Shown in pieces: positions 12,698-30,362 of a stretch of 37,028 bases of DNA. The notes beneath the pieces are model-generated. The model did no database searches, was not told the DNA's origin, and worked only from the letters and a program-made list of their open reading frames with translations. The stretch is taken from contig JAFAJB010000090.1 in the NCBI GenBank assembly GCA_019236395.1, positions 1 through 37,028 on the forward strand, in the 5' to 3' direction. Positions within the stretch are counted from its first letter, which is position 1. The number at the start of each line of letters is the position of its first letter. The translations under genes were made by a program, and so were the position numbers. The DNA comes from Cupriavidus sp. (GTDB taxonomy: Bacteria > Pseudomonadota > Gammaproteobacteria > Burkholderiales > Burkholderiaceae).

Positions 12698-12703
12698 CGC
12701 AAA

Positions 12704-12747
12704 GCTCAACCGCGGCTCAACCGCGGCTCAACCGCGGCTCTACCGCG
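12704..12747. repeat. Tandem repeat, 4 copies of an 11-base unit
   Basis: Unit GCTCAACCGCG at 12704, 12715 and 12726 (identical) and 12737 (one change, A to T). The array ends one base before the stop of the convergent MBL gene. Each junction forms a CCGCGG palindrome. It is too short and lacks spacers, so it is not a CRISPR array. Confidence 0.9.
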
Positions 12748-12748
12748 A

Positions 12749-13828
12749 TCAGCCCGCCTTCCGGAACCGGATCACCCCGTCGTCACCGCACTCGCGCACC
12801 AGTTCTCCGCGATGCCAGAGCGCGTGCAGGTGAGCCAGCGCTTCGCCCATTGCGAACGTGAGCTGGTGGATGTCGAACTGGCGGCGGAAGATCACGCCGA
12901 CGATATCGTGGGCATTGCACGGCTTCTCGGCGCAGGCGGCCAGCGTTTCGGCCAGGCGTTCGACGTGATGTTCGCGAAGCTGGCCAATACGTGTGTGGAG
13001 ATTGCGGAACGGACGGCCGTGGGACGGCAGGATCAGCACGTCCTGGGGCAGGCCCTCGTATTTGCCGAGGGAGTCCAGGTAGAGCTGCAGCGGGTTGGCT
13101 TCCGGCTCCATGTCGAACACGCTGACGTTGGTCGAAATGCGCGGCAGCACCATGTCGCCGGAAATCAGCACGTTGGTGGCCGGGTTGAACAGTGCGACGT
13201 GTTCTGGTGCATGGCCGTAGCCGGTGATCACGCGCCACGACGACGAGGCCGGATCGGCGCCGATCGAAACCGTGTCGCCATCCATCAGGCGGCGGTACTG
13301 CGTGGGCAGGTCGGGCACCAGCGACGGGTAGTAGCTCTTGCGGGCGCGCAGCTTCTCGAGGTTGTCGGGGTCGGTCAGGCCGTGGCGTGCAAAGTGGCTG
13401 GCCGCGAAGTCGCCGCCCGCATTGGAGCCCACGCCAGAACCACCAGCCATCACGCGCGCCGACATGTAGTCGCCCAGGCTCATCCACAGCCGCACATCCC
13501 AATGCTTGCACAGCCAGTGCGCCAGGCCGACATGGTCCGGGTGGCAGTGCGTGACCAGCACGCGCAGCACGGGCAGGCCTTCGAGCTCGTTGGCGAAGAT
13601 GGTTTCCCAGTGGGCCCTGATGGTGTCGTTGGTGATACCGCAATCGACGATCGTCCACCCGTCGCGCCCGTCGATGCGGTCACGCAGCAGCCAGAGATTG
13701 ATGTGGTCCAGCGCGAACGGCAGCGGCATGCGCAGCCAGTACACCCCAGGCGCCACTTCCTGCCGGGCCCCCGGTTCGGGCATGGTTTCGCCAAACGGGT
13801 ATTGAAGCTGGTGTTCGAGTGCGTTCAT
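12749..13828 (-). CDS. Metallo-beta-lactamase-fold hydrolase, LiuR-linked
   Basis: A 359-residue MBL-fold protein with all metal-binding motifs: H94-x-H96-x-D98-H99 (THCHPDHVGLAH), H206 or H210 (GYGHAPEH), D225 (LISGDMVLP) and H270 (LPSHGRPF). A C-terminal helical domain of about 80 residues (280-359) resembles the winged extension of glyoxalase II-like and LACTB2-like proteins, so thioester or ester hydrolysis is plausible. It is divergent from liuR. The intergenic region holds a LiuR-type palindrome at 13862-13883, so it is probably co-regulated with leucine degradation, perhaps hydrolysing an acyl-CoA by-product. That role is inference; the fold is certain. Confidence 0.88.
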   Translation of the reverse strand: MNALEHQLQYPFGETMPEPGARQEVAPGVYWLRMPLPFALDHINLWLLRDRIDGRDGWTIVDCGITNDTIRAHWETIFANELEGLPVLRVLVTHCHPDHVGLAHWLCKHWDVRLWMSLGDYMSARVMAGGSGVGSNAGGDFAASHFARHGLTDPDNLEKLRARKSYYPSLVPDLPTQYRRLMDGDTVSIGADPASSSWRVITGYGHAPEHVALFNPATNVLISGDMVLPRISTNVSVFDMEPEANPLQLYLDSLGKYEGLPQDVLILPSHGRPFRNLHTRIGQLREHHVERLAETLAACAEKPCNAHDIVGVIFRRQFDIHQLTFAMGEALAHLHALWHRGELVRECGDDGVIRFRKAG

Positions 13829-13861
13829 GGGGCTGTCTCTGGTCGTTGTCAGGCGCTAGAC

Positions 13862-13883
13862 TTGACGCTAACGTTAACGTCAA
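13862..13883. promoter_or_regulatory. LiuR-type operator between liuR and the MBL gene
   Basis: A 22-base imperfect palindrome with outer arms TTGACG/CGTCAA and core TAACGTTA. Only one base pair breaks the symmetry (C at 13868 against A at 13877). It has the same arms and spacing as the operator at 14423-14446. It sits 33 bases before the MBL start on the minus strand and 78 bases before the liuR start on the plus strand, so it can serve autoregulation and control of the MBL gene. Confidence 0.85.
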
Positions 13884-13961
13884 TCTGCGTTTTGTGCTTG
13901 TCATCTTAGACGAAAAGTTGATTGCGCAACGAACGACCGTTCACTTTTACCGGACGACACC

Positions 13962-14387
13962 ATGTCGGCACTGCCATCTTCCGCCACCTACACGATTACC
14001 GATCTCGCGCGCGAATTCGACATTACACCGCGTGCGATCCGGTTCTACGAGGACCAGGGCCTGCTGGCGCCCGACCGCGAAGGCCCGAGCGGCCGCAAAC
14101 GCGTCTACAACGGCCGTGAGCGCACCCGCCTGAAGCTTACGCTGCGAGGCAAGCGGTTAGGGCTCACTCTCAACGAAATCCGCGAAATTCTGGATCTGTA
14201 CGAGTCGCCGCGCGATACCGCGCCGCAACTTGAACGCTTCCTGCACCTGCTGGGGCAGCATCGCGGCACGCTCGAGCGTCAGCTTGAGGACCTGCAGGCC
14301 CAGCTAGCCGAAATCGACCAGCACGAGCGCCAGTGCAAAGCGCTGCTGGCTGCGCATCATGCGGGCGACAAGACCCATTCCGCCTGA
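13962..14387 (+). CDS. liuR: MerR-family regulator of leucine/isovalerate catabolism
   Basis: A 141-residue MerR-type regulator. The winged helix-turn-helix spans about 9-78 (TYTITDLAREFDITPRAIRF, then GPSGRKRVYNGRERTRLKL). A dimerising coiled coil spans about 88-125. The C-terminus has only one cysteine (C125), so it is not a metal sensor of the MerR/CueR type. It is adjacent to ivd and to two palindromes with TTGACG arms. LiuR proteins of this family repress branched-chain catabolic genes until an acyl-CoA intermediate accumulates; that is family knowledge. The DNA-binding sites here fit it. The ribosome-binding site before 13962 is weak. Confidence 0.88.
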   Translation: MSALPSSATYTITDLAREFDITPRAIRFYEDQGLLAPDREGPSGRKRVYNGRERTRLKLTLRGKRLGLTLNEIREILDLYESPRDTAPQLERFLHLLGQHRGTLERQLEDLQAQLAEIDQHERQCKALLAAHHAGDKTHSA

Positions 14388-14422
14388 ATCCGCCATCCCG
14401 GCGGCACGGTGCACGACTTTTA

Positions 14423-14451
14423 ATTGACGTTTACGTAAACGTCAATACAAT
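14423..14451 (+). promoter_or_regulatory. LiuR operator over the ivd promoter
   Basis: A perfect 24-base palindrome at 14423-14446, each half ATTGACGTTTAC. Its first half contains a -35-like TTGACG (14424-14429). Sixteen bases further is a -10-like TACAAT (14446-14451), so the palindrome fills the whole -35/spacer region. A bound dimer would block polymerase or, as in other MerR proteins, distort the spacer. The ATG of ivd is 41 bases beyond the -10 element. Confidence 0.88.
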
Positions 14452-14492
14452 ACCTGACACCGATCCTCATCGATACAACAGGAGACACCACC

Positions 14493-15674
14493 ATGACCGA
14501 ACTCCCCGGCCTGAGATTCGACCTCGGCGAAGACATCGAGATGCTTCGCGAATCCGTGCGTAGCTGGGCGCAAGCCGAACTCGCACCGCGCGCGGGCGAG
14601 ATCGATCGGACCGACCAGTTCCCGATGGACGCCTGGAAGAAGATGGGCGACCTCGGCGTGCTGGGCATCACGGTGGCCGAGGAATACGGCGGCGCCAATA
14701 TGGGTTATCTGGCGCACATGATCGCGATGGAGGAGATCAGTCGCGCGTCGGCATCGGTCGGCCTGTCCTACGGCGCCCATTCGAACCTGTGCGTGAACCA
14801 GATCCACCGCAACGGCACGGCCGCCCAGAAGGCGAAGTACCTGCCGAAGCTGGTTTCGGGCGACTGGATCGGCGCGCTCGCCATGAGCGAGCCGAATGCC
14901 GGCTCGGACGTGGTCAGCATGAAGCTGCGCGCCGAATTCAAGGGCGACCGCTACGTGCTCAACGGCACCAAGATGTGGATCACCAACGGCCCGGACTGCG
15001 ACGTGCTGGTGGTCTACGCCAAGACCGAGCCTGAACTGGGCGCACGCGGCATGACCGCCTTCATCGTCGAAAAGGGCATGAAGGGGTTCTCGGTCGCGCA
15101 GAAGCTGGACAAGCTCGGCATGCGCGGATCGCACACCGGCGAACTGGTGTTCCAGGACGTGGAAGTCCCGGTGGAGAACATCCTAGGTGCCGAGAATGGC
15201 GGTGCCCGTGTGCTGATGAGCGGCCTGGACTACGAGCGCGCCGTGCTGTCGGGCGGCCCGGTCGGCATCATGCAGGCCTGCATGGACGTGGTCACGCCGT
15301 ATATCCACGACCGCAAGCAGTTCGGCCAGAGCATCGGCGAATTCCAGCTGATCCAGGGCAAGGTCGCCGACATGTACACCACGCTGCAGGCCGCGCGCAG
15401 CTACCTGTACACCGTGGGCAAGAACCTCGATGCGCTGGGGACTGACCACGTGCGCCAGGTGCGCAAGGACTGCGCCGCCGTGATCCTGTACACGGCGGAA
15501 AAGGCCACCTGGATGGCCGGCGAGTCGGTGCAGATCCTGGGCGGCAACGGCTACATCAACGAGTACCCGGTCGGCCGCCTGTGGCGTGACGCCAAGCTGT
15601 ATGAGATCGGCGCCGGCACTTCGGAAATCCGCCGCATGCTGATCGGCCGCGAGCTGTTCGCTGAAACGAAGTAG
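14493..15674 (+). CDS. ivd: Isovaleryl-CoA dehydrogenase
   Basis: FAD enzyme oxidising isovaleryl-CoA to 3-methylcrotonyl-CoA and passing electrons to ETF. It has 393 residues with the acyl-CoA dehydrogenase signatures [13 protein letters not shown] (about 128-140) and [20 protein letters not shown] (347-366). The catalytic base separates it from other family members: Glu248 lies in [15 protein letters not shown], where human IVD has its base, and Ala374 ([12 protein letters not shown]) replaces the Glu that most acyl-CoA dehydrogenases use. A GGAGA ribosome-binding site precedes ATG 14493. It is the first gene after the LiuR operator/promoter and heads the leucine operon. Also called liuA. 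Confidence 0.96.
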
Positions 15675-15692
15675 GCCTGAAAGTGATGCAAG

Positions 15693-15730
15693 AGGCGTTC
15701 GGTAGACCCCGAGGCAAGTGCCGAACGCCT
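15693..15730 (+). terminator. Hairpin between ivd and aceK
   Basis: AGGCGTTCGG (15693-15702) pairs perfectly with CCGAACGCCT (15721-15730) around an 18-base loop. Only two or three T residues follow. This could be a partial terminator giving more ivd than downstream mRNA, or a processing site. Confidence 0.55.
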
Positions 15731-15779
15731 TTACAATCTCCAGACCGCCGCCCGTCCCAAGCCTCCGCGCTTCCAATCC

Positions 15780-17603
15780 ATGTCCCACTTCCCCAAGCTG
15801 CTCTCGTCGCAGATTGCCTACGATGTGGCGCGGACCATGCTGGACGGCTTCGACACGCACTACCGGCTGTTCCGCGAAGTCAGCATCGAGGCCAAGGCGC
15901 GCTTCGAGGCCGGAGACTGGCACGGCCTGCAGCAACTGCAACGCGACCGCATCGCGTTCTACAACCAGCGTGTGCACGAAACGATCGTGACGCTGCAGGA
16001 TGAGTACGACGCCGAACGGATCGAGGACGGGATCTGGCAGCAGATCAAGCTGCACTACATCGGCCTGCTGACCAATCACCACCAGCCGGAGTTGGCCGAG
16101 ACGTTCTTCAACTCGGTTTTCACGCGCATACAGCACCGCTCGTACTTCAACAACGATTTCATCTTCGTGCGTCCGGCGATCTCGACCGAGTACATCGAGA
16201 ACGAGGAGTCGCCCACCAAGCCGACCTATCGCGCCTACTACCCCGGCAGCCGCGAAGGCATGGCGGCCTGCTTCGAGCGGGTCGTGCACAACTTCCAGCT
16301 CGAGCTTCCGTTCGAAGACCTCAAGCGCGATATCGGCTACGTGGTCCGGGCAATCACCGAGCATTTTGGCGACTTCCGCACCGCGCAGAATTTCCAGGTG
16401 CATACGCTGTCGTCGCTGTTCTTCCGCAACAAGACCGCGTTCATCATCGGCCGTGTGCTCAACGGCGACAAGAGCTATCCACTGGTGATACCGATCATCC
16501 ACGGGCCTTCGGGCAAGCTGGTGCTGGACACCGTGCTGCTGCGCCCGGAGCAGATACTGATCCTGTTCTCGTTCGCGCACGCCTACTTCATGGTCGACAT
16601 GGAGATTCCGTCGGCCTACGTCACGTTCCTGCGCGACCTTCTGCCGCGCAAGTCGCGGGCGGAGATCTACACGTCGCTGGGTTTGCAGAAGCAGGGCAAG
16701 AACCTGTTCTATCGGGACTTCCTGCATCACCTGCAGCACTCGTCGGACAAGTTCATCAGCGCGCCCGGCATCAAGGGGCTGGTGATGCTGGTGTTCACGC
16801 TGCCGTCGTTCCCGTACGTGTTCAAGGTGATTCGCGACTTCTTCCCGGCGCCGAAGGAGACCACGCGCGAGCTCGTGAAATCGAAGTACCAGCTCGTCAA
16901 GCAGCACGACCGCGTCGGCCGCATGGCCGATACGCTCGAATACTCGGACGTGGCCTTTCCGCTGTCGCGCTTCGACGATGCACTGGTGCGCGAACTGGAG
17001 CAGCACGCACCGTCGATGATCGAGTACCAGCGCAGCAAGGACGGCGAGAACGAGATCGTCGTACGCCATGTCTATATCGAGCGCCGCATGACGCCGCTGA
17101 ACATCTGGCTCCACGAGGGGACGGACGAACAGGTGGACCACGGCATCCTCGAGTATGGCAATGCCGTCAAGGAGCTGATCGCCGCGAACATCTTTCCCGG
17201 GGACATGCTCTACAAGAACTTCGGCGTTACCCGACATGGCCGCGTGGTTTTTTACGACTACGACGAGATCGAGTACCTGACCGACTGCAATATCCGCCGC
17301 GTGCCCGAGCCACGCAACGAAGAAGAGGAAATGTCGGGCGAGGTGTGGTACACCGTACATCCGCACGACATCTTTCCGGAGACCTACGGCACGTTCCTGC
17401 TGGGCGATCCGCGCGTGCGCGCCGCATTCATGCGGCACCACCCCGATTTCTTTGACGCTGCGATGTGGCAGCACCACAAAGACCGGCTCCTGGCCGGCCA
17501 CGTTCATGACTTCTTCGCGTACCAGACTAAAGAACGCTTCATCCACCGCTACGGCGCCGGCGCAGCCGGCCACGCAACCGAAGAGCCAAGGAGGGCAGCA
17601 TGA
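15780..17603 (+). CDS. aceK: Isocitrate dehydrogenase kinase/phosphatase
   Basis: Bifunctional enzyme that phosphorylates isocitrate dehydrogenase (inactive) or dephosphorylates it, steering isocitrate to the glyoxylate bypass on acetyl-CoA-yielding substrates. It has 607 residues (E. coli 578), intact. The N-terminal regulatory half has [20 protein letters not shown]. The kinase-like half has [20 protein letters not shown] and [11 protein letters not shown]475, N480 and D493 match the catalytic/metal residues of the E. coli enzyme (D457 and D475 there). It is usually beside aceA/aceB in enterics. Here it follows ivd, which links it to acetyl-CoA made from leucine. Its last four bases (ATGA) overlap the carbonic anhydrase start. 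Confidence 0.97.
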
Positions 17604-18271
17604 GTGACGCTATCGCCCAACTGTTCCGCAACAACCGCGATTGGGTAGACCGCGTCAACGCGGAAGACCCGACGTTCTTCACGCGCCTGGCCAACCAGCA
17701 GGCGCCCGAGTACCTGTGGATCGGCTGCTCGGACTCCCGCGTGCCTGCCAACCAGATCCTGGGCCTGGCCCCGGGCGAGGTTTTCGTCCACCGCAACATC
17801 GCCAACGTGATCTCGCACAGCGACCTGAACGCGCTGTCGGTGCTGCAATACGCAGTCGACGAGCTCAAGGTGCGCCACATCACCGTGGTCGGCCACTATG
17901 GCTGCGGCGGCGTGGGCGTGGCACTCAAGCGCCAGCGTATCGGCCTGGCCGACAACTGGCTGCGCCACGTGCAGGACGTGGCCGACAAGCACTCGGCCTA
18001 TCTGGGCACCGTGCTGCGTGAGGACGATGCACACACCCGCCTGTGCGAGCTGAACGTGATCGAGCAGGTCAACAACGTCTGCCAGACCACCGTGGTCCAG
18101 GACGCCTGGGCGCGCGGACAGCTCGTGACCGTGCACGGCTGGGTCTACGGCGTGTCCGACGGCCTGCTGCGCGACCTTGGAATGGCCGCCAACAACAACG
18201 AGGAATTGCAGGAGCAGATTGCCGCTGCCCTGCGTCAGTACGGCGATCCGCCACAAGCATCGATTCGCTGA
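17600..18271 (+). CDS. Beta-class carbonic anhydrase
   Basis: Zinc enzyme interconverting CO2 and bicarbonate in the cytoplasm. It has 223 residues. Zinc ligands are C43, H99 and C102, with the D45-R47 dyad ([25 protein letters not shown]). The C-terminal half contains the usual [12 protein letters not shown] segment. It overlaps aceK by ATGA and is therefore translationally coupled; GGAGG lies at 17590-17594. In a leucine operon its likely job is to supply bicarbonate to methylcrotonyl-CoA carboxylase or recycle CO2. That is an inference from context. It resembles Can/CynT, but the symbol is left open. Confidence 0.95.
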
Positions 18272-18313
18272 GCCCAACCACCGAAGCCCCACCCCCTGCT
18301 TCAGGAGACAGAC

Positions 18314-19498
18314 ATGCATCAAGATCCAGTCGTTATCGTTTCTGCCGCGCGTACCCCGATGGGTGCGTTCCAGAGTGAACTGAGCAGTCTGACGGCGCCG
18401 CAGCTCGGCGCCACGGCGATCCGCGCCGCGGTCGAGCGTGCCGGTATCAGGCCGGACCAGGTGCAGGAGGTGGTGTTCGGATGCGTGCTGCCGGCCGGGC
18501 AGGGCCAGGCCCCCGCGCGGCAGGCTGCGCTTGGCGCCGGCCTGCCGCTCGACGTGGCATGCACCACCGTCAACAAGATGTGCGGCTCGGGCATGCGCGC
18601 GGCGATGAGTGTCTACGATGGCCTGCTGGCCGGATCGTTCGACATCGCCGTGGCTGGCGGCATGGAAAGCATGACCAACGCGCCATACCTGATCCCGAAG
18701 GCACGCGGCGGCTATCGCATCGGTCACGGCATGATCTACGACCACATGATGCTCGACGGCCTCGAGGACGCGTATGACAAGGGCCGCGCAATGGGCACCT
18801 TCGGCGAGGACTGCGCCGCAAAGTACCAGTTCACGCGCGAGCAGCAGGATGCATTTGCGATGGAGTCGGTACGTCGCGCACAACGCGCCACCGAGCTGGG
18901 CGACTTCCGCTGGGAGATCGTGCCGGTAACGGTGTCGGGCAAGGGCGGTGATACGGTCGTCGATACCGACGAAGGTCCGCGCCGCATCAAGGTCGACAAG
19001 ATTCCGTCGCTGAAGCCGGCCTTCGCCAAGGATGGCACGATCACCGCCGCATCGTCGTCGTCGATCAGTGACGGCGCCGCCGCGCTGGTGATGATGCGCG
19101 AATCCACTGCGAAGTCGCTCGGGCTGGTGCCGATCGCGCGCATGCTGGGACACACCTCGCACGCGCAGGCGCCGGGCTGGTTCACCACCGCGCCGGTGGA
19201 GGCCATCGCCAAGCTCTACCGCAAGCTCGACTGGACCAGCACGAGCGTGGATCTGTTCGAGATCAACGAGGCCTTCGCCGTGGTGCCGATGGCCGCGATG
19301 CACGATCTCGACATCCCGCACAACAAGGTCAATATCCACGGCGGCGCCTGCGCGCTCGGCCACCCGATCGGCGCATCCGGCGCGCGCATCATGACCACGC
19401 TGATCGGCGCGCTGCGCAAGACCGGTGGCAAGCGCGGCGTGGCCAGCCTCTGCATTGGCGGCGGCGAAGCCACTGCGGTCGGCATCGAAATCTACTGA
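18314..19498 (+). CDS. Acetyl-CoA C-acetyltransferase (thiolase)
   Basis: Condenses or cleaves acetoacetyl-CoA/acetyl-CoA in the cytoplasm. It has 394 residues, the usual length for biosynthetic-type thiolases. The nucleophile is C90 (NKMCGSGMRAAM), the NEAFA motif is present, H350 lies in GGACALGHPIGASGAR, and C380 in SLCIGGGEA. AGGAGA lies 6 bases before ATG 18314. In this operon it probably splits acetoacetyl-CoA formed from the HMG-CoA lyase product acetoacetate after CoA transfer; a role in 2-methylacetoacetyl-CoA cleavage (isoleucine) is also possible. No CoA-transferase gene is in the window. Confidence 0.94.
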   Translation: MHQDPVVIVSAARTPMGAFQSELSSLTAPQLGATAIRAAVERAGIRPDQVQEVVFGCVLPAGQGQAPARQAALGAGLPLDVACTTVNKMCGSGMRAAMSVYDGLLAGSFDIAVAGGMESMTNAPYLIPKARGGYRIGHGMIYDHMMLDGLEDAYDKGRAMGTFGEDCAAKYQFTREQQDAFAMESVRRAQRATELGDFRWEIVPVTVSGKGGDTVVDTDEGPRRIKVDKIPSLKPAFAKDGTITAASSSSISDGAAALVMMRESTAKSLGLVPIARMLGHTSHAQAPGWFTTAPVEAIAKLYRKLDWTSTSVDLFEINEAFAVVPMAAMHDLDIPHNKVNIHGGACALGHPIGASGARIMTTLIGALRKTGGKRGVASLCIGGGEATAVGIEIY

Positions 19499-19529
19499 TT
19501 CGCACCCGAACGTCAAAAGGAGGCTGACC

Positions 19530-20210
19530 ATGCCCACCGCTCTCGTCCTCGGCGCCTCACGCGGCCTTGGTCTCGAATTTGTCAGGCAGTATCGCGCCGA
19601 TGGCTGGCGCGTCATCGCGGCCGCGCGCAGTGATGAAGGCGTGGCCGCACTCAAGGCGCTTGGCGCGGAGGCGCACAAGCTCGACCTGACCGATGCGGCC
19701 GCCCTGGCGGGGCTGGGCTGGAAGCTCGATGGCGAGACGCTCGACGTGGCGATCTACAACGCCGGTGTGATCGGCCCGCGCTCCGAAACGGCGGAGCCGG
19801 TCACGCGCGAGGACTTCGATGCCGTGATGCATACCAACGTGCTCGGACCGATGATGGCGTTGCCGCTGCTGTTGCCGTTCGTCGAGAACGGCAACCACGG
19901 CCGCGGTGGCGTGCTGGCGGTGCTGTCATCGCGCATGGGCAGCATCGGCGCGATGGACAGCAACCGGAGCTGGCTCTACCGGGTCAGCAAGGCATCGGCC
20001 AACGCGGCCCTGAAAGCGATTTCGCTCGAAGCACGCCACGCGATCTGCGTGGCCCTGCATCCGGGCTGGGTGCAGACCGACATGGGCGGTCCGAAGGCCG
20101 ATATCACCCCGCATCAGAGCGTTTCCGGCATGCGTCGCGTGTTGGCGGGCGTCACGCGCCACGACAACGGCAGCTTCCACAATTACGACGGCACACCAAT
20201 TCCCTGGTAA
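19530..20210 (+). CDS. Short-chain dehydrogenase/reductase in the leucine operon
   Basis: A 226-residue SDR of the C-factor-like (CsgA-type) atypical group. The glycine motif is GASRGLG (8-14) after PTALVL, followed by YNAG, Ser in LSSRMGSIG, and YRVSK as the YxxxK catalytic pair, then HPGWVQTDMGG. The C-terminal SFHNYDGTPIPW is typical of the group. A strong AAAAGGAGG site precedes ATG 19530; an in-frame start at 19425 would lie inside the thiolase gene. It sits between thiolase and acyl-CoA dehydrogenase with only 31 and 18 bases on each side. Its substrate is unknown, perhaps a hydroxyacyl-CoA or carbonyl intermediate. Confidence 0.9.
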   Translation: MPTALVLGASRGLGLEFVRQYRADGWRVIAAARSDEGVAALKALGAEAHKLDLTDAAALAGLGWKLDGETLDVAIYNAGVIGPRSETAEPVTREDFDAVMHTNVLGPMMALPLLLPFVENGNHGRGGVLAVLSSRMGSIGAMDSNRSWLYRVSKASANAALKAISLEARHAICVALHPGWVQTDMGGPKADITPHQSVSGMRRVLAGVTRHDNGSFHNYDGTPIPW

Positions 20211-20228
20211 GAGACCTGGTAACAAGAC

Positions 20229-21359
20229 ATGCTGCTGACCCCCGAACAGGAAATGATCCGCGACGCCGTGCGGCAGTTCGCGCAGGACATCATCGCGCCG
20301 CAGGCGGCGCAGTGGGATCGTGAAAAGACGTTTCCGAAGGATGTGCACAAGGAACTGGCCCGGCTGGGCGCCTATGGCGTGGCCGTGCCCGAAGCGCTCG
20401 GTGGCGCCGGGCTCGATTACCTGTCGCTGGCGCTGATCCTGGAAGAAATCGCGGCTGGCGACGGCGGTACGTCCACCGTCATCAGCGTCAACAACTGCCC
20501 CGTGTGCAGCATGCTGATGGCCTTCGCCAACGATGCGCAGAAGCAGCAGTGGCTGGTGCCGCTGGCGCGCGGCGAAATGCTCGGCGCGTTTTGCCTGACC
20601 GAGCCGCACGTCGGCTCGGACGCCGCCGCGCTGCGCACCACGGCCACGCGTGATGGCGATCACTACGTGCTCAACGGCGTGAAGCAGTTCATCACCAGCG
20701 GCAAGCATGCCGACGTGGCGATCGTGATGGCCGTGACCGACAAGGCCGCCGGCAAGCGCGGCATCAGCGCGTTCCTGGTGCCGACCTCGGCGCCGGGCTA
20801 CATCGTCGCGCGCCTGGAGGACAAGCTCGGCCAGCATTCCTCCGATACCGCGCAGATCGTGTTCGAGGATTGCCGGATTCCGGCCGCGAACATGCTCGGC
20901 GAGGAAGGCGCGGGCTACAAGATGGCGCTGTCCGGTCTCGAGGGCGGCCGCATCGGCATTGCCTCTCAGAGCATCGGCATGGCCCGCGCCGCGTTCGAGG
21001 CCGCGCTGGCCTATGCGAAGGAACGCGAGAGCTTCGGACAACCCTTGTTCCAGCACCAGGCCGTGCAGTTCCGGCTGGCCGACATGGCCACGCAGATCGA
21101 TGTGGCGCGCCAGATGGTGTGGCACGCTGCGGCGCTCAAGGACGCTGGCCGCCCATGCCTGAAGGAAGCGGCCATGGCCAAGCTGTTTGCCAGCGAGATG
21201 GCCGAGCGCGTCTGCTCGGACGCCATCCAGGTGTTCGGCGGCTACGGCTATGTGAACGATTTCCCGGTCGAACGGATCTATCGTGATGTGCGCGTATGCC
21301 AGATCTATGAAGGCACCAGCGATATCCAGAAGATCCTGATCGCCCGCGCGCTAGGCTGA
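20229..21359 (+). CDS. Acyl-CoA dehydrogenase (short/branched-chain type)
   Basis: A 376-residue FAD enzyme introducing a 2,3-double bond into an acyl-CoA. Signature 1 is AFCLTEPHVGSDAA and signature 2 is QVFGGYGYVNDFPVERIYRD. The catalytic base is E361 in QIYEGTSDIQK, the standard position for butyryl-, medium- and short/branched-chain dehydrogenases and different from Ivd upstream. It is therefore a second, distinct activity, probably for 2-methylbutyryl- or isobutyryl-CoA (isoleucine/valine) or butyryl-CoA. The substrate cannot be fixed from sequence. It follows the SDR by 18 bases. Confidence 0.93.
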   Translation: MLLTPEQEMIRDAVRQFAQDIIAPQAAQWDREKTFPKDVHKELARLGAYGVAVPEALGGAGLDYLSLALILEEIAAGDGGTSTVISVNNCPVCSMLMAFANDAQKQQWLVPLARGEMLGAFCLTEPHVGSDAAALRTTATRDGDHYVLNGVKQFITSGKHADVAIVMAVTDKAAGKRGISAFLVPTSAPGYIVARLEDKLGQHSSDTAQIVFEDCRIPAANMLGEEGAGYKMALSGLEGGRIGIASQSIGMARAAFEAALAYAKERESFGQPLFQHQAVQFRLADMATQIDVARQMVWHAAALKDAGRPCLKEAAMAKLFASEMAERVCSDAIQVFGGYGYVNDFPVERIYRDVRVCQIYEGTSDIQKILIARALG

Positions 21360-21415
21360 ACAGCAGCAAGCCGCAGTTTCCCCCAACCGTTATCCGTGAA
21401 CCGGAGCATATTGCG

Positions 21416-22075
21416 ATGAGCGCCCCCATCGACTTCTACTTCGATTTCTCCTCGCCCTACGGCTACTTTGCCAGCACGTGCATCGACGATATCGCCCAGA
21501 AGTACGGCCGCTATGTGGCCTGGCATCCGATCCTGCTGGGCGTCGTGTTCAAGACCACCGGATCGGCGCCGCTGCCAAGCATTCCGATGAAGGGCGAGTA
21601 CTCGTGGCGTGATTTCGAGCGCACCGCGCAGTTTCACAACATCGACTACAAGCGGCCCGCGCATTTTCCGCTGCCGACGCAACACGCCGCGCGTGCAATG
21701 CTGTGGCTCCAGAACCAACACGGCGCGGACGTGGCCACGGCGTTCGCCAAGGCCGTCTATCGCGCGCTGTTCGTCGATGACATCAACATTGCCGAACCCG
21801 CCGAGCTGGCCCGGCTGGCCGAGCCGCTCGGCATCGACCCGATCGCCATGAACGAGGGCGCCACGAACTACCAGATCAAGGACCAGCTCAAGGCCGAGAT
21901 CGAAGTGGCGATGGCCAAGGGCGTGTTCGGCTCGCCGTTCGTGATCGTCGACGGCGAACCGTTCTGGGGCTTCGACCGCTTCGAGCAGGTGGAGGCCCAC
22001 CTGAAGAGCCGACGGCAGACCGAACTGCGCGCCGTCGGCGGCAACGACATCAACAAGGAAAAGAAACCCGCATGA
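21416..22075 (+). CDS. 2-hydroxychromene-2-carboxylate isomerase-like (DsbA-fold, GST-kappa type)
   Basis: A 219-residue thioredoxin-fold protein with the family opening FYFDFSSPYGYFAS; S13 before the Pro is the glutathione-thiol-activating residue. The cis-Pro strand is GVFGSPFVIVDGEPFWGFDR. There is no CxxC, so it is not a disulfide oxidase. Proven members isomerise 2-hydroxychromene-2-carboxylate in naphthalene degradation with glutathione, or are kappa GSTs. No aromatic-degradation genes are near, so the true substrate here is probably different. It lies 56 bases after the acyl-CoA dehydrogenase and overlaps the HAD gene by ATGA. Confidence 0.9.
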   Translation: MSAPIDFYFDFSSPYGYFASTCIDDIAQKYGRYVAWHPILLGVVFKTTGSAPLPSIPMKGEYSWRDFERTAQFHNIDYKRPAHFPLPTQHAARAMLWLQNQHGADVATAFAKAVYRALFVDDINIAEPAELARLAEPLGIDPIAMNEGATNYQIKDQLKAEIEVAMAKGVFGSPFVIVDGEPFWGFDRFEQVEAHLKSRRQTELRAVGGNDINKEKKPA

Positions 22076-22755
22076 CCGCAGCAAACCAGGCCGCACGCTT
22101 CGATTGCGTGATCTTCGATTGCGACGGTGTGCTCGTCGATAGCGAGCCCATCGTCCACCGTGTGCTCAACCGCGTGCTTAACGAGCTTGGCATCGATATC
22201 ACGCTCGAGGAATCCACGCAGTGGTTCCTCGGCCGTGCCGTGCGCGACGAACTCGGGAATATCGAGGCACGCCTTGGCAAGCCGCTGCCCAGGAACTTCC
22301 TGTCGGAATGGTTCGTGCGTCGCGACGCCGCGCTCATCGAGGAGCTGGAGGCCGTGCCGCACGTCCGTGAGGCTATCGAGGCCATCAAGGCGCGTGGCCT
22401 GCCGGTGTGCGTGGCGTCTGGTGCAGACCGCATCAAGGTCAAGCTGCAGCTCAATCACACGAAGCTGGTGGAACTGTTCACGGACGACGCCGCACGCGAG
22501 CACATCTTCTCGGCAACCGAGGTCGAGCACAGCAAGCCCGCGCCTGACGTGTACCTGCTCGCCGCGCGCACGATGGGTGTCGAGCCGTCGCGCTGCGCGG
22601 TGATCGAGGACAGCCCGACCGGCGCCACGGCGGGCGTGGCAGCAGGCATGACCGTGTTCGGCTATGCCGCGCGCAACGACGCCGATGCGCTGCGCGCAGT
22701 CGGCGCCACAACGATCTTCAACGACATGCGCGAGTTGCCGGAGCTGATCGGATGA
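22072..22755 (+). CDS. HAD-family phosphatase (phosphoglycolate/beta-PGM-like)
   Basis: A 227-residue HAD hydrolase of subfamily IA. Motif I is FDCDGVLVDSE with D16 nucleophile and D18 acid/base. Motif II is the Ser in VASGAD, motif III the Lys in HSKPAPD, and motif IV EDSPTGATAGVAAGM. The helical cap lies between residues 26 and 100, and a Glu after DVDS (VDSEP) is typical of small-sugar-phosphate phosphatases. It overlaps both neighbours by ATGA, so translation is coupled. The substrate is unknown; a role as a house-cleaning phosphatase is the safest reading. Confidence 0.93.
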   Translation: MTAANQAARFDCVIFDCDGVLVDSEPIVHRVLNRVLNELGIDITLEESTQWFLGRAVRDELGNIEARLGKPLPRNFLSEWFVRRDAALIEELEAVPHVREAIEAIKARGLPVCVASGADRIKVKLQLNHTKLVELFTDDAAREHIFSATEVEHSKPAPDVYLLAARTMGVEPSRCAVIEDSPTGATAGVAAGMTVFGYAARNDADALRAVGATTIFNDMRELPELIG

Positions 22756-23177
22756 CAAAGAAGCGGCAGGCCGGTGCGGGCCAGTCGCCGTGTCCGTGCG
22801 GCAACGGTGCCTTTGATGCGTGCTGTGGCCGCTTCCATCGCGGCGAAGCCCTGCCGCCCACGGCCGAGGCGCTGATGCGGTCGCGCTATAGCGCCTATGT
22901 GCTCGGCAACGTGGACTGGCTGCGCCAGACCTGGCACGCCTCCACCTGCCCGGGCGATCTGTCGCCCGATGGTGGCACGCAGTGGCTCGGCCTGACAGTG
23001 AAATCTCACGCGCAGCAGGACGATACGCACGCCACGGTCGAGTTCATCGCCCGCTACAAGGTCGGCGGCCGCGCGCATCGCTTGCATGAATTGAGCCGTT
23101 TTGTGTTCGAGCCCCGGGCGGAGGGCGAGCCGGCGCGCTGGCTCTACGTGGACGGTGATCTGCGGGAGCCGGCCTGA
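22752..23177 (+). CDS. ychJ: YchJ-family SEC-C motif protein (UPF0225)
   Basis: A 141-residue soluble protein. An N-terminal zinc-binding SEC-C-like motif has C14, C16, C24 and C25 (SPCPCGNGAFDACCGRFHRG). The NTF2-like body follows, with the family-typical EALMRSRYSAYVLGNVDWL and WLYVDGDL. It overlaps the HAD gene by ATGA. The family is widespread and of unknown function. A second SEC-C motif at the C-terminus, found in some members, is absent. Confidence 0.93.
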   Translation: MTKKRQAGAGQSPCPCGNGAFDACCGRFHRGEALPPTAEALMRSRYSAYVLGNVDWLRQTWHASTCPGDLSPDGGTQWLGLTVKSHAQQDDTHATVEFIARYKVGGRAHRLHELSRFVFEPRAEGEPARWLYVDGDLREPA

Positions 23178-23237
23178 CCGGCGGCGACCGCAAATTCGGC
23201 GCACTGCGCCTGTAGCGTTTTCTGAAGAAGGTTGGTT

Positions 23238-24167
23238 GTGAAGTCTCGCGTTGTTTCCTCCGTCTGTTGCATCGTCGCCGCGCTTGCGTGCCTGGCATGG
23301 GGCGACTCGGCCGTCGCCCAGGTGGCGCTGCCCGCGAGAACGATCGAGCAGGTCGTGATGGTGCCGAAGGTTGGACCAGAGGACACGGTGGATATCGAGA
23401 CGACGATTTTCCGGCCGCCCGGTGAAGGACGCAGGCCGCTGGTGGTCATCAACCACGGCAAGTCGCCGGGCAAGCCTGCATTCCAGCGGCGCGCACGCTT
23501 TGCCGCGCAGACGGCGGAGTTCGTGCGGCGCGGCTATGTCGTGGCGCTGCCGATGCGGCAGGGCTTCTCGAAATCGGGCGGCAAGTATGTGGGCGGAAGC
23601 TGCGATGTAGGCGCGAGCGGCATGGCGCAGGCCGAGGACGTGATCGCCGCGCTCGACTACCTTGTTCAGCAGCCCTACGTCGACCCGACACGGATCATCG
23701 TCATCGGCCAGTCATACGGTGGTCTGTCGACGATGGCCCTATCGACGATCGGTTATCCGGGCGTGGTCGGCGTGGTCAATTTTGCGGGCGGGCTGCGCAA
23801 CGAGAATTGCAACGGCTGGGAAAACAACCTCGTCGATGCATTCGGAGACTACGGCCGCGGTGCCCGCTATCCATCGCTCTGGGTCTATGGCGATAACGAC
23901 AGCTTCTGGCCTTGGCCGCTGCCGGAGCGCATGTTCAACAGCTACAAGGCCAATGTGACGGGCGCCGCCACTGACACGCGCTTTGTCGATATCGGCGAGT
24001 TCGATGGCGACTCGCATCGGCTATTCGGCGAACTCGCGGGCAATGGTGTGTGGCTTCCGGAAGTCGAGGCATTCTTCCGCGAGCTGGGACTGCCGTTCGA
24101 CGTGGAGCCGCCAGACGAAGAGCCGGTCACGCGAGGCACGGCCAGCGCCAGGCACAGAAGATCCTGA
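23238..24167 (+). CDS. Secreted alpha/beta hydrolase (dienelactone hydrolase-like)
   Basis: A 309-residue periplasmic or exported hydrolase. A signal peptide of about 27 residues ends AVA (SSVCCIVAALACLAWGDSAVA). The catalytic triad is probably S159 (IGQSYGG), D221 (YGDNDSFWP) and H260 (FDGDSHRLF). The GTG at 23238 is chosen because AGAAGG lies about 6 bases upstream; the in-frame TTG at 23232 abuts that site. The fold matches BAAT/dienelactone-hydrolase-like esterases, with an extra Cys pair (C122, C191) that could form a disulfide. It is the only exported protein in the leucine operon, and its substrate is unknown. It lies 60 bases after ychJ. Confidence 0.85.
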   Translation: MKSRVVSSVCCIVAALACLAWGDSAVAQVALPARTIEQVVMVPKVGPEDTVDIETTIFRPPGEGRRPLVVINHGKSPGKPAFQRRARFAAQTAEFVRRGYVVALPMRQGFSKSGGKYVGGSCDVGASGMAQAEDVIAALDYLVQQPYVDPTRIIVIGQSYGGLSTMALSTIGYPGVVGVVNFAGGLRNENCNGWENNLVDAFGDYGRGARYPSLWVYGDNDSFWPWPLPERMFNSYKANVTGAATDTRFVDIGEFDGDSHRLFGELAGNGVWLPEVEAFFRELGLPFDVEPPDEEPVTRGTASARHRRS

Positions 24168-24207
24168 TTCAGTTCAAACCAGTTCATATCGGTTATTCGG
24201 AGGAGAC

Positions 24208-24996
24208 ATGCAATTCACCACGCTTACGGTTACCGCCGAACGCCACGTTGCGACGGTCACGCTCAATCGGCCCGACGTGCGCAATGCGTTCAATGAGACC
24301 GTCATCGCCGAGTTGACCGGTGCATTCCGCGCACTTGGCGATACCCCTGAAGTGCGCGCGATCGTGCTGGCCGGCAATGGTCCGGCCTTCTGCGCCGGGG
24401 CGGACCTGAACTGGATGAAGAAGATGGCCGGTTACTCGAATGACGAGAACCGTGCCGACGCGCTGACGCTGGCGCAGATGCTGTACACGATCTGGGTCTG
24501 CCCGAAACCGGTGATCGCCCGCGTACAAGGCGACACCTACGCCGGCGGCATGGGTCTGGTGGCGGCATGCGATATCGCCGTGGCGGCCGAGGGAGTGAAT
24601 TTCTGCCTGTCGGAGGCCCGCCTTGGCCTGCTGCCGGCGACGATCAGCCCGTATGTGATCCGCGCGATGGGCGAGCAGGCTGCGCGCCGGTACTTCATCA
24701 CCGCCGAGCGTTTCGATGCGGCGGAGGCCCTGCGGCTCGGTTTTGTCCATGCCGTGGTGCCAGCGGCGGGCCTTGATGCGAAGGTGGCCGAGATTGCCGC
24801 CACGCTGGTCGCCAACAGCCCAAATGCGGTGCGCGAAAGCAAGCGGCTGGTGCAGGAAGTGGCAGGACAGGACATCGACAACGACCTGCTGGCCGATACC
24901 GCCAATCGGATCGCGGCGATCCGCGCGTCTGACGAAGGGCGCGAGGGCGTGCGTTCGTTCCTGGAAAAGCGCGCGCCTTCGTGGAAGCCGCAATAG
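24208..24996 (+). CDS. liuC: Methylglutaconyl-CoA hydratase (enoyl-CoA hydratase family)
   Basis: Hydrates 3-methylglutaconyl-CoA to HMG-CoA, the third CoA-level step of leucine degradation. It has 262 residues of crotonase fold. Oxyanion-hole segments are FCAGADLNWMKKM (about 61-73) and YAGGMGLVAACDIAVA (111-126). Of the two crotonase glutamates only E136 (FCLSEARLGLLPATISPYV) is kept; the other position is G116. This pattern and the LPATISPYV block are typical of bacterial LiuC proteins as I know them. AGGAGA precedes ATG 24208 closely. A generic enoyl-CoA hydratase is the alternative. It is the last gene of the run; the repeat block at 25039 follows. Confidence 0.85.
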   Translation: MQFTTLTVTAERHVATVTLNRPDVRNAFNETVIAELTGAFRALGDTPEVRAIVLAGNGPAFCAGADLNWMKKMAGYSNDENRADALTLAQMLYTIWVCPKPVIARVQGDTYAGGMGLVAACDIAVAAEGVNFCLSEARLGLLPATISPYVIRAMGEQAARRYFITAERFDAAEALRLGFVHAVVPAAGLDAKVAEIAATLVANSPNAVRESKRLVQEVAGQDIDNDLLADTANRIAAIRASDEGREGVRSFLEKRAPSWKPQ

Positions 24997-25038
24997 CGAT
25001 AGCAGTAGTAGCTGTAGCTGTAGCGATTCAGGCGCTTG

Positions 25039-25152
25039 CCCTCTCCCCGAACCCCTCTCCCGCATGCGGGAGAGGGGAGCAAGCAGACAGTATTTGAAAT
25101 GCTCGCGGTTGTCCTCCCTCTCCCGCGCGCGGGAGAGGGGCGGGGGAGAGGG
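25039..25152. repeat. Composite palindromic (REP/BIME-like) element
   Basis: Two perfect palindromes built on CCCTCTCCCGC/GCGGGAGAGGG: 26 bases at 25052-25077 and 24 bases at 25116-25139. They are framed by an outer inverted pair CCCTCTCCCC (25039-25048) and GGGGAGAGGG (25143-25152), so the 114-base block is symmetrical as a whole. The same core recurs at 35702-35733 and, weaker, at 12665-12697. It lies between liuC and the bio operon and may end the upstream transcript. Before it, 24997-25024 has a short AGCTGT/AGCAGT slippage-like run. Confidence 0.88.
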
Positions 25153-25157
25153 TGCAG

Positions 25158-25181
25158 CGCATCCAATGCGACAAATTTTTT
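25158..25181 (+). terminator. Small hairpin followed by T6
   Basis: CGCAT (25158-25162) pairs with ATGCG (25166-25170) over a 3-base loop. Six T residues follow at 25176-25181 after a 5-base gap. This is a weak intrinsic terminator at best, possibly acting together with the repeat just upstream. Confidence 0.35.
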
Positions 25182-25294
25182 AGATAGCGTTAGCCGAAGT
25201 TATCGGCGAGAACGCGGTGCTGGGGCGATGTGTGCAGCACTGCGGGTGACAAGATCGCGCAACGTCTGCGAAATCGCACCCATCATGCCGATTG

Positions 25295-25330
25295 CGGTTG
25301 GTTTGCCAACCGGGTAGGGACCTTTCTACC
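25295..25330 (+). promoter_or_regulatory. Tandem hairpins in the bioA leader
   Basis: Hairpin 1: CGGTTGG (25295-25301) pairs perfectly with CCAACCG (25306-25312), loop TTTG. Hairpin 2: GGTAG (25313-25317) pairs with CTACC (25326-25330), directly abutting the first. The second ends exactly at the ATG of a 16-codon ORF, 91 bases before bioA. It looks like an RNA-level control element, but I match it to no known riboswitch class. The rest of 25182-25294 shows nothing I can name, and no BirA- or BioR-type operator was recognised. Confidence 0.5.
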
Positions 25331-25381
25331 ATGAGCACTCCCATCCGTCCGGCAGTTCCGCGTGCCCCGGCCTCCCAGTGA
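25331..25381 (+). CDS. Possible 16-codon leader peptide upstream of bioA
   Basis: ATG at 25331 to TGA at 25379-25381 encodes MSTPIRPAVPRAPASQ, rich in Pro, Ala and Arg. AGGGA at 25316-25320 lies inside the second leader hairpin, about 10 bases upstream, so folding would hide it. It could be a leader peptide coupling translation to bioA expression, or a chance ORF. The composition gives no hint of sensing biotin or any amino acid except proline. Confidence 0.3.
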   Translation: MSTPIRPAVPRAPASQ

Positions 25382-25420
25382 CCAGCGCGAACACGGACGG
25401 GCAATCATAGGAGAGTCCCT

Positions 25421-26827
25421 TTGACACATCCTGTCCCCAATCCCGAAGGCGGTGACACGTCGCTCGCGGCGCGCAGTCAGCGCGCCGTGTGGCACCCATG
25501 CACGCGCCTGCGTCCCGATGCAGGCGCCAACGAGCCGCCGCTGGCCATCGTGCGTGGCGAAGGACCCTGGCTGATCGACGCCAACGGCAAACGCCATTTC
25601 GACGCCATCAGCTCGTGGTGGGTCAACCTGTTCGGCCATGCCAATCCGGTCATCAATGCCGCGCTCACTGCGCAACTGCAGACGCTGGAACACGTGATGC
25701 TGGCCGGCTGCACGCACGAGCCGGCCGTGGAGCTAGCCGAGCGCCTGGCGGCGCTCACCGGTGGCGCGCTCGGCAATGTGTTCTATGCGTCCGATGGCGC
25801 ATCGGCCGTCGAGATCGCGCTCAAGATGAGCTTCCACTACTGGCGCAACACGGGCCTGTCGGCCAAGCGCGAGTTCGTCTGCCTGCGCCACGGCTATCAC
25901 GGCGAAACGGTGGGCGCACTGGCGGTGACCGATGTGGAAATCTTCCGCGATGCGTACGACCCACTCACGCGCCGCGCCCACGTGGTGATGTCTCCCGATG
26001 CGCGCCAGGCCACACGCGGTGAAACCGCCGCCGACGTGGCGGCTCGCGCGCTGGCTGAACTCGAAGCACTGCTGCGCGACCGCGCGGGCCATATTGCCGC
26101 GCTGATCGTCGAGCCGCTGGTGCAGGGCGCGGCCGGCATGGCGATGTACGACCCGTCGTATCTTGAAGGCGCACGCGCGCTGTGCGATCGCTACCGCGTG
26201 CACCTGATCGCCGATGAGATCGCGGTGGGCTGTGGCCGCACCGGCACGTTCTTCGCGTGGGAGCAGGCGCGCGGCGGTGATGCCGTGCCCGCCCACGCCT
26301 GGCCCGATTTCCTTTGCCTGTCGAAGGGCATCACGGGCGGCTACCTGCCGTTGTCGCTGGTGCTGTCGCGCCCGGAGATCCAGCGGGCGTTCATCGCCGA
26401 CGACATCGCGCGCAGCTTCCTGCATTCGCATTCGTACACCGGCAACCCGCTCGCGTGCCGCGCGGCGCTGGCCACGCTCGACCTGTTTGCCGCCGACGAT
26501 GTGCTCGCGCGGAACCGCGAGCGTGCGCAATGGCTCGCCAACGCCATGGCGGGCATCGCCGCCGATCCGCGTGTCACCAACGTGCGCCAGCGCGGACTGA
26601 TCTGGGCGGCCGATATCGATGCGGACGCGGCAGGCGCGAACTTTGCCGCGCGTTTCCATCTGGCGGCGCGCGAACGCGGCGTCCTGGCGCGGCCGATCGG
26701 GCACACGCTCTACGTGATGCCGCCGTATGTTTTCGATGCCGAACTGGCCAACTGGCTCGGCGAACAGTTGCTGGACACGCTGCAGGCAGTGCTGGTTCCG
26801 GCGGAGGACGCACGCCATGCTGCTTGA
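25421..26827 (+). CDS. bioA: Adenosylmethionine-8-amino-7-oxononanoate aminotransferase
   Basis: PLP enzyme converting KAPA to DAPA with SAM as amino donor, in biotin synthesis. It has 468 residues. It has WHPCTRL (25-31), [13 protein letters not shown] (64-76), [14 protein letters not shown], the PLP-binding Asp D265 ([13 protein letters not shown]) and Schiff-base lysine K302 ([13 protein letters not shown]). The start is a TTG at 25421 with AGGAG 7 bases upstream; no other start lies before the conserved WHPCT block. The rare start may keep expression low. The 3' end overlaps bioF by 11 bases. First gene of bioA-F-D-B. Confidence 0.96.
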
Positions 26828-28037
26828 TCACCTGAAACGCGCCGCCGCGGAACGCGAGGCCCAGTCGCTGACGCGCCGTCGTCGCATCGCCCATACGGCC
26901 TGCGCGCCGCACCAGTCGGTCGGCGCAGTCGACGCCACGCCCACGCCGTTGCTCACGTTCTGCAGCAATGACTACCTTGGCCTGGCCGATCACGGATCGA
27001 TCGCCCATGCGCTGGCCGAAGGCGCGCATCGCTACGGCGCGGGCAGCGGCGCATCGCATCTGGTCAGCGGCCATTCGCTTGCGCATGCACAGCTCGAACA
27101 CGAACTGGCGCGCTGGCTGGCCCCGTACATTCCGCAGGCGCAGGCGCTGTACTTCTGCACCGGCTACATGGCAAACCTGGCCGTGCTGACGTCGCTCGGC
27201 ACCGCCGGCGCGACGCTGTTCTGCGAGACCCTGAACCATGCTTCGTTGATCGATGGCGCACGCCTGGCACGTGCTGACGTGCAGCGCTATCCGCATGGCG
27301 ACACCAAGGCGCTGGACGCACTGCTGGCCGCCAGCGCGAGCGAACTGAAGCTGATCGTGACCGACAGCGTGTTCAGCATGGATGGCGACATCGCGCCGCT
27401 TGCCGCGCTGCTGGAAGTGGCGGAGCGCCACGACGCGTGGATCATCGTCGATGATGCGCACGGCTTCGGCGTGCTCGGCGAAAACGGCCACGGCGTGTTC
27501 GAACACCTGGGCCTGCGCTCGGAGCGGCTGGTCTATGTCGGCACGCTCGGCAAGGCGGCCGGCGTGGCGGGCGCATTCGTGGCCGCGCACGAGACGATCA
27601 TCGAGCATCTCGTCAACACGGCGCGCCCGTACATCTACACCACGGCCGCGCCGCCGGCCGTCGCGCATGCGTTGCTGACGAGCCTCGACATCATCGCCGG
27701 CGAAGAAGGCCACTCCCGTCGTGCCCATCTGGCCGATTTGATCGCACAACTGCGTGCCGGACTCGGCGCGCTTGCAGCACAGGCGGGCTGGACGCTCGGC
27801 GAGAGCGAGACGGCCATCCAGCCGCTGATCATCGGCGACAACGCGGCAGCGCTGGCGCTGTCGGCCGCGCTCGAAGCCGATGGCATTCGCGTTGGCGCGA
27901 TCCGGCCGCCGACGGTGGCTGCGGGAACCGCGCGGCTGCGCATCACGCTGTCGGCGTCGCATACGGTGGCAGATGTGCAGCGGCTGCTGGAGGCGATCGC
28001 ACGCGCGATGCCGCAGCGGCACCAGGAGGCCGCATGA
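26817..28037 (+). CDS. bioF: 8-amino-7-oxononanoate synthase
   Basis: PLP enzyme condensing pimeloyl-ACP/CoA with alanine to give KAPA, the step before BioA. It has 406 residues of the alpha-oxoamine synthase family: [14 protein letters not shown] (47-59), [24 protein letters not shown] (210-221) and Schiff-base lysine K246 ([12 protein letters not shown]). ATG 26817 lies inside the end of bioA, with GGAGG about 10 bases before it. The last four bases overlap bioD (ATGA). Confidence 0.96.
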
Positions 28038-28789
28038 CGGTCATCGCCAACAGGCCGGAGCGTTTCGCCTGCTTCATCACCGGCACCGATACCGGCGTGG
28101 GCAAGACCCATGCAACCGCCACGCTGCTGCATGCGCTCCACGAGGCGGGTTACAGCACGGTGGGCATGAAGCCCGTTGCCGCTGGCGGCGAATGGCTCGA
28201 CGATCACTGGCAGAACGACGACGTCGATCAGCTTCGCGCAGCAGGCTCGGTGATCGTGCCGCAGGAAGAGATGTGCCCGTTCTTCTTTCACACCCCGGCA
28301 TCGCCGCACCTGGCCGCCGCGCTGGAAGGCGTGCGTATCACGCGCAAGCCGATTCGCGAGGCATTCGAGTCGCTGAGCCAGCGTGCCGAGGCAGTGGTTG
28401 TCGAAGGCGTGGGCGGATTCATCGTGCCGCTCGATGTCGGCGCCGTGCGCTGGAACACGGCGGACCTGGCCGCGATGCTCGACGTGCCGGTGATCATGGT
28501 GGTTGGCATCCGCCTGGGCTGCCTCAGCCACGCAATGCTGACCGCCGAAGCGATCCGGGCGCGTGGACTGAAGCTTGCCGGCTGGATCGCCAATCGCATC
28601 GATCCCGAGATGCTGCTGGCCACCGAGAACATCGTCACGCTGCAGGATGCAATCGACGCGCCGATGCTCGGCGAGCTGCCCTGGCAGGTCGCGCCGGCCG
28701 TTGCCGCCCAATACCTCGACCTCGCGCCGCTGCTGTCCGGCGTGGCACCCGTCGTCTCCCATAACAATGCCGCCGCGCATCGCGCGTGA
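28034..28789 (+). CDS. bioD: Dethiobiotin synthetase
   Basis: ATP-dependent carboxylation of DAPA to dethiobiotin. It has 251 residues. The P-loop GTDTGVGKT is at 17-25. [11 protein letters not shown] carries the substrate-binding Lys, and [11 protein letters not shown] is the second metal/ATP-binding block. It also has the ANRID segment seen in BioD. It overlaps bioF by ATGA; bioB starts 28 bases after it. An N-terminal extension of about 10 residues precedes the fold. Confidence 0.95.
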
Positions 28790-28817
28790 GCTGCCCCAAC
28801 CGAACCCTCAATCGATC

Positions 28818-29855: not shown

Positions 29856-29868
29856 TAGAGGGAGCGAT

Positions 29869-30351: not shown

Positions 30352-30362
30352 CAAGCGCGCGT

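Follow-up and report, generated by a model that had tools for sequence, protein, structure and literature searches.

A predicted LiuR operator overlapping the ivd promoter of Cupriavidus sp., with conservation in related Burkholderiales

The liuR-ivd locus

The analysed DNA (37,028 nt, hereafter the window) contains a palindrome that overlaps the core elements of a promoter, located between the gene of a MerR-family regulator, liuR, and an acyl-CoA dehydrogenase gene on the same strand (Table 1). The dehydrogenase gene is followed by aceK and a series of further genes. None of the curated models was matched above cut-off by the ivd product; the name ivd/liuA comes from the original prediction and from gene context, which suggest an isovaleryl-CoA type enzyme.

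Table 1. Features of the liuR-ivd region and a candidate operator elsewhere in the genome. Positions are those of the window unless a contig is given.
Feature	Position	Strand	Basis or remark
MBL-fold metallo-hydrolase gene	12749..13828	-	divergent from liuR
Second LiuR operator (predicted), TTGACGCTAACGTTAACGTCAA	13862..13883	.	1 mismatch; between liuR and divergent MBL gene
liuR, MerR-family regulator, 141 aa	13962..14387	+	PF13411, PF09278, PF00376; structure model; fold matches
Conserved LiuR operator core (predicted), TTGACGTTTACGTAAACGTCAA	14424..14445	.	within perfect 24-nt palindrome; at most 1 difference in 37/37 distinct Cupriavidus/Ralstonia loci
-35 element TTGACG (5/6)	14424..14429	+	inside operator
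-10 element TACAAT (5/6)	14446..14451	+	16 bp after -35; base 14446 common with palindrome
Expected ivd transcription start	14457..14459	+	predicted from -10
AGGAG, likely ribosome-binding site of ivd	14480..14484	+	sequence
ivd/liuA, acyl-CoA dehydrogenase, isovaleryl-CoA type by context	14493..15674	+	presumed substrate
aceK, isocitrate dehydrogenase kinase/phosphatase	15780..17603	+	NF002804, 900.6 bits, cut-off 488; 105 bp after ivd
Rest of candidate transcription unit	17600..24996	+	carbonic anhydrase, thiolase, SDR, second acyl-CoA dehydrogenase, DsbA-like, two short ORFs, hydrolase, enoyl-CoA hydratase
Terminator-like hairpin with T tail	25158..25170	+	after enoyl-CoA hydratase gene; weak: shuffles predict 11.2 hits of this kind in the region, 6 found
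Third operator (candidate)	contig C104:3009-3030		3 mismatches in 22-mer; 197 nt upstream of icmF

The original prediction described a perfect 24-base palindrome, and this is what the sequence contains: two adjoining arms of 12 nt, 14423-14434 (ATTGACGTTTAC) and 14435-14446, its exact reverse complement, are 100% complementary and have no spacer between them. It also placed a TTGACG -35 element in the first half and a TACAAT -10 element at the palindrome end, 16 bases on. Both elements are where they were described, with one T (14446) shared between palindrome and -10. The spacer (14430-14445) is thus 16 bp long. When TACAAT is paired with the hexamers upstream, the -35 match is 5/6 at 16 bp, 1/6 at 19 bp and 3/6 at 20 bp, so no other of these spacings offers a good -35 than 16 bp. 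A promoter scan of 12700-31000 ranked this site, with 10/12 consensus matches, best of four hits; chance would yield 3.0 hits, so that by itself the scan is weak evidence.

Taken alone, the length of the palindrome is only moderately surprising. Perfect palindromes of at least 24 nt arose in 4 of 200 first-order Markov windows, and the case for an operator therefore rests on conservation. Two other perfect palindromes, G+C-rich, similar to each other and REP-like, lie just past the enoyl-CoA hydratase gene at 25052-25077 (26 nt) and 25116-25139 (24 nt).

The genes from ivd to the enoyl-CoA hydratase gene may be co-transcribed, since the ivd promoter is the sole plus-strand promoter-like site that the scan found in 12700-25303. 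We take the two short ORFs of this unit to be HAD-like and YchJ-like. Beyond the cluster, at 25421-29855, Pfam matches (class-III aminotransferase, class-I/II aminotransferase, AAA_26, and radical SAM with BATS) point to biotin-synthesis-like genes, for which bioA/F/D/B are probable names. Methylcrotonyl-CoA carboxylase of the leucine pathway requires biotin.

The structure model of the regulator (mean pLDDT 84.5, pTM 0.55) comprises a winged helix-turn-helix, two further helices and a long C-terminal helix (residues 87-140), with no separate domain. The predicted structure is thus that of a short MerR protein lacking a sensor domain. Its best PDB folds in Foldseek are CueR and then HiNmlR, both on promoter DNA. 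HiNmlR (PDB 5d8c/5d90) is likewise a short MerR regulator that is described as having no sensor domain, although its identity to LiuR is only 24-26%. Metal sensing by LiuR was considered and rejected: the protein reached no curated family cut-off (bits/cut-off: PRK09514.1, 60.4/143; ZntR, 56.8/167.95; CadR-PbrR, 54.3/151.45; CueR, 49.2/147.4; MerR, 47/150.85), and it has a single, non-invariant Cys column, occupied in 19 of 29 sequences. As the model contains no sensor domain, the direct sensing of acyl-CoA hinted at in the original prediction is unproven.

The name LiuR is suggested by protein family, neighbourhood and motif conservation. As in LiuR regulons, the regulator has a MerR-family fold, its gene lies beside ivd/liu, and a conserved palindrome, the predicted operator, precedes genes of branched-chain amino acid metabolism. 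The LiuR motif was reportedly defined by Kazakov in 2009.

Conservation of the operator and position of the -10 element

We compared 41 listed Cupriavidus/Ralstonia loci, 40 of which have a site behind liuR; 37 distinct loci, the window included, were left after removal of three duplicates. One listed locus, L142, entered through a non-liuR site and shows no liuR. The 22-mer at 14424-14445 takes one of three sequences in the 37 distinct loci, and TANAAT follows it directly (offset 0) in all of them while the flanks drift; these loci are close kin, so 37/37 does not amount to 37 independent events. Mean column information is 1.95 bits across the operator and 1.80 bits across the seven bases that follow it; in the flanks it drops to 0.41 and 0.29 bits. 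The base following the 22-mer is T in all 37 loci and is the first T of the -10. The base preceding it is A in 32 loci and G in five, and the 24th base pair is therefore not clearly part of the operator. Of the length originally given, the 24-nt palindrome stands and the 22-base motif proposed for testing proves apt, the conserved element being the 22-mer.

That promoter, operator and regulator come together at this place, as originally proposed, is supported by the adjacent MerR gene, by the acyl-CoA dehydrogenase gene downstream and by the joint retention of operator and -10. This conservation in relatives and a second site 562 bp away place the predicted operator beyond chance.

At wider range, LiuR searches matched 70 of 200 genomes of the order (E 1e-15) and 107 of 299 of the phylum (E 1e-20), and a search in named genomes returned 595 confirmed stretches, the best 80 of which we call the named loci. 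The top eight of these are from Cupriavidus, which marks the window as Cupriavidus-type. With up to four mismatches allowed, 138 liuR loci (duplicates and window included) have a site behind liuR in 90 cases, in front in 111 and in either position in 128; the corresponding numbers for the named loci (best 80 of 595) are 44, 65 and 72. Neither operator position is therefore universal. In 28 re-examined loci of the phylum search, which include members of the order, the closest match to the motif around liuR has 0 to 7 mismatches, and cores like TTTACGTAAACG recur, which suggests a shared motif in more distant loci. Longer arrays of a 6-bp unit (ACGTNN) extend the operator in some relatives (L015:1468-1495, L017:427-460, L024:61-88) and would perhaps give room for more than one dimer.

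Other Burkholderiales keep the predicted operator with the -10 in other registers. We assigned groups from record titles; for three MAGs (L064, L085, L106) the flanking pattern itself helped to decide the group, which makes these three assignments circular. Of 27 listed Oxalobacteraceae loci and 21 listed Comamonadaceae loci, those with a site behind liuR were counted. Paraburkholderia and kin were counted only at the site in front of liuR, and the order-level loci L011-L038 and the named loci L049, L050, L081, L095, L098, L105 and L118 stand outside the register counts.

In Cupriavidus/Ralstonia the -10 directly follows the operator at 37/37 sites and the first TTGACG would serve as -35. The Oxalobacteraceae have a -10 (at least 5/6) seven bases after the operator at 18 of 19 sites behind liuR, where it pairs with the second unit of the operator, TTTACG, as -35, the implied spacer being 17 bp. 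At 11 of 13 Comamonadaceae sites behind liuR, CATAAT (nine) or GATAAT (two) ends on the first base of the operator; no conserved -35 was seen upstream of these hexamers. The Comamonadaceae register is the weakest of the three, and in L083 the CATAA contains the stop codon of liuR.

A second operator, further sites and neighbouring genes

The 22-mer occurs twice in the window at three mismatches or fewer and in none of 100 shuffles. The second operator, 562 bp upstream of the one at ivd and missed in the original prediction, is 33 bp from the start of the MBL gene and 78 bp from liuR. Sites in front of liuR are present in 40 of the 41 listed Cupriavidus/Ralstonia loci, and an MBL homologue in 68 of the 80 named liuR loci (best 80 of 595). 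Neither direction from the second operator shows a -10-like hexamer that recurs at a constant distance in Cupriavidus/Ralstonia, and we therefore do not assign the gene that it controls. The front site is accompanied by a recurring -10-like hexamer in the direction of the MBL gene in Paraburkholderia and kin (13/15), and in the direction of liuR in Oxalobacteraceae (10/16) and Comamonadaceae (7/20). Between the second operator and liuR (13884-13960), a block like CATCTTAAGCGAAAACTT is often kept in the Cupriavidus/Ralstonia loci seen; the window has CATCTTAGACGAAAAGTT.

The window is contig C67 of a 3.2-Mb genome that is 54% complete. At three mismatches or fewer, the 22-mer has eight forward places in this genome versus one for the reversed control: the two window sites, a site before icmF and five others with three mismatches. 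Restricting the search to a 16-mer core with 0-1 mismatch leaves only three places, the one before icmF and the pair in the window. With up to two mismatches the core has 21 forward and 21 control places, so weaker sites are indistinguishable from noise, and genome-wide scoring of weak sites was dropped. As a model for genome-wide search, the role originally foreseen for it, the 22-base motif is thus suited to near-perfect sites and fails for weaker ones.

The icmF product was identified as a fused isobutyryl-CoA mutase, IcmF, with model NF045497; the 434-aa fragment encoded here scores 695.6 bits over positions 1-411 of 1076, where the cut-off for the whole protein is 1500. Of 60 relatives, ranging from members of the genus to members of the order, 42 have the motif at two mismatches or fewer. 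Among the matches listed for same-genus genomes, 25 are non-liuR sites, nine of them before icmF, 15 before one SDR family and one (L166) before neither, and the 24 listed icmF and SDR sites stand 22-120 nt upstream of their gene. SDRs of this sort presumably act in isoleucine breakdown. The best match to the SDR target in the window genome is only 37% identical; absence of the target means little in a genome that is 54% complete.

The ivd neighbour is 92-98% identical in the 10 named Cupriavidus/Ralstonia loci, and an ivd homologue (at least 72% identity) lies on the same strand near liuR, within the flank examined, in 64 of the 80 named loci (best 80 of 595). In the Cupriavidus loci looked at, ivd is about 600 bp from the operator. 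In four Cupriavidus loci (L040, L041, L045, L046) an additional ORF of about 150-185 aa separates operator and ivd; by its appearance we take it to be a PaaI-type thioesterase, and the window has no room for it.

Downstream of liuR, aceK is present in 57 of the 80 named loci (best 80 of 595), on the liuR strand in 57/57, and 44 of these loci also have ivd. The remaining 23 of these 80 have no aceK within the flank examined, which is short in some. The 13 loci with aceK and no ivd in the flank comprise 12 from Paraburkholderia, Burkholderia and Caballeronia and one Burkholderiales MAG. By hand comparison of L066, L067, L071 and L073, the aceK match starts no more than about 120 bp from the end of the liuR match or its stop. 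This gene order suggests that LiuR may control aceK. A literature search for papers on both aceK and isovaleryl-CoA dehydrogenase found none, and the main text of the study of LiuR regulons (PMC5343134) mentions neither aceK nor icmF.

Mode of control and its meaning

Position 14424-14445 is very probably the operator of LiuR, which is encoded just upstream. A LiuR dimer bound to the palindrome would cover the -35 and the whole spacer and touch the -10 of a well-formed sigma-70 promoter, keeping RNA polymerase from engaging. During branched-chain amino acid degradation LiuR would be released, either directly or via another protein, and the promoter would then fire at about 14458 and drive ivd and, probably, the downstream genes including aceK. 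Through the second operator LiuR would control its own gene, the divergent MBL hydrolase gene, or both. To this reading as a whole, with a LiuR operator at 14424-14445, occlusion until LiuR is released and a second operator for liuR and/or MBL, we assign a probability of about 0.83.

LiuR is described as a repressor in other bacteria. It is a MerR-family regulator with 103 regulons in Table 1 of the study of these regulons (PMC5343134), and the Shewanella protein is given as a MerR-family repressor (PMC3223726). For P. aeruginosa, PMC8871633 gives LiuR a repressor role and reports that its action is opposed by a putative protein responsive to leucine or citronellol. As in the LiuR regulon of Proteobacteria, a MerR-family regulator stands here beside an acyl-CoA dehydrogenase gene, with palindromic sites before pathway genes; it differs in that sites precede icmF and, among relatives, also an SDR gene, and that ivd is followed by aceK. 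The predicted Shewanella regulon differs in its additions, which are aceBA (glyoxylate shunt), gltBD and thrABC (PMC3223726).

How LiuR would act on the promoter is the point on which the classical MerR-type switch competes. In such a switch the free regulator, bound between -35 and -10, is a repressor, and on a signal it twists the DNA so that the promoter is activated, as at MerR, CueR and BmrR promoters. The MerR fold, the match to CueR and HiNmlR on promoter DNA and a palindrome overlapping the core promoter are what the ivd locus shares with those systems. It departs from them in the spacer, 16 bp rather than 19-20 bp, in having the -35 itself under the operator and in its lone Cys column. 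A review gives 19-20 bp as the typical spacer of MerR-regulated promoters and describes shortened ones as unresponsive to activation (PMC9909328), and the implied Oxalobacteraceae spacer of 17 bp also falls short. Given the 16-bp spacer and an operator over the -35, plain occlusion is the most likely way for LiuR to block RNA polymerase, and we regard a classical switch as improbable. CvkR, a MerR-type repressor, offers a precedent for repression at a short spacer: its tnsB promoter has a spacer of only 17 nt and its site overlaps the start and part of the -10 (PMC9938897). CvkR differs from LiuR in a potential effector-binding domain, a 15-nt motif, a 21-nt spacer at the cas12k promoter and its other function (PMC9938897).

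Two further explanations concern the site itself. The palindrome could belong to some other regulator, one of the breakdown of fatty acids or amino acids, with liuR a mere neighbour. Such regulators exist, LiuQ of the TetR family being one that serves the same pathway in betaproteobacteria (PMC5343134), and the link between motif and liuR loosens outside the order, where the 28 re-examined loci, some still within it, range up to seven mismatches. Yet the motif stands before or behind liuR in 72 of the 80 named loci (best 80 of 595, up to four mismatches), and we think it very unlikely that liuR is a bystander. A chance palindrome over an ordinary constitutive promoter would fit the frequency of such palindromes in Markov windows, but scarcely the fact that this one persists in all 37 distinct loci of its own and closely related species with drifting flanks on either side, or that two more copies lie close to genes of linked function. 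Conservation argues strongly against chance, which we consider negligible here.

The site is a correct finding and another case of a known kind of element. In Cupriavidus, a genus with uses in biotechnology, it locates the promoter of the leucine-degradation genes together with the operator and the likely regulator, and near-perfect copies of its motif mark a small regulon. It also provides a natural case of a MerR-family protein with its operator on a normally spaced promoter, which is useful for asking whether short MerR proteins are plain repressors. In related bacteria the same switch appears to be wired to shifted start signals, and the position of aceK in this neighbourhood suggests that the degradation of branched-chain amino acids is linked to the glyoxylate shunt. 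Tentatively, and with rather less than even confidence, we propose that the operator is the fixed element around which the promoter shifts, that the sensor-less LiuR may be a plain occluding repressor, and that LiuR, by way of the aceK gene behind it in many Burkholderiales, may couple leucine breakdown with the isocitrate branch point between the TCA cycle and the glyoxylate shunt.
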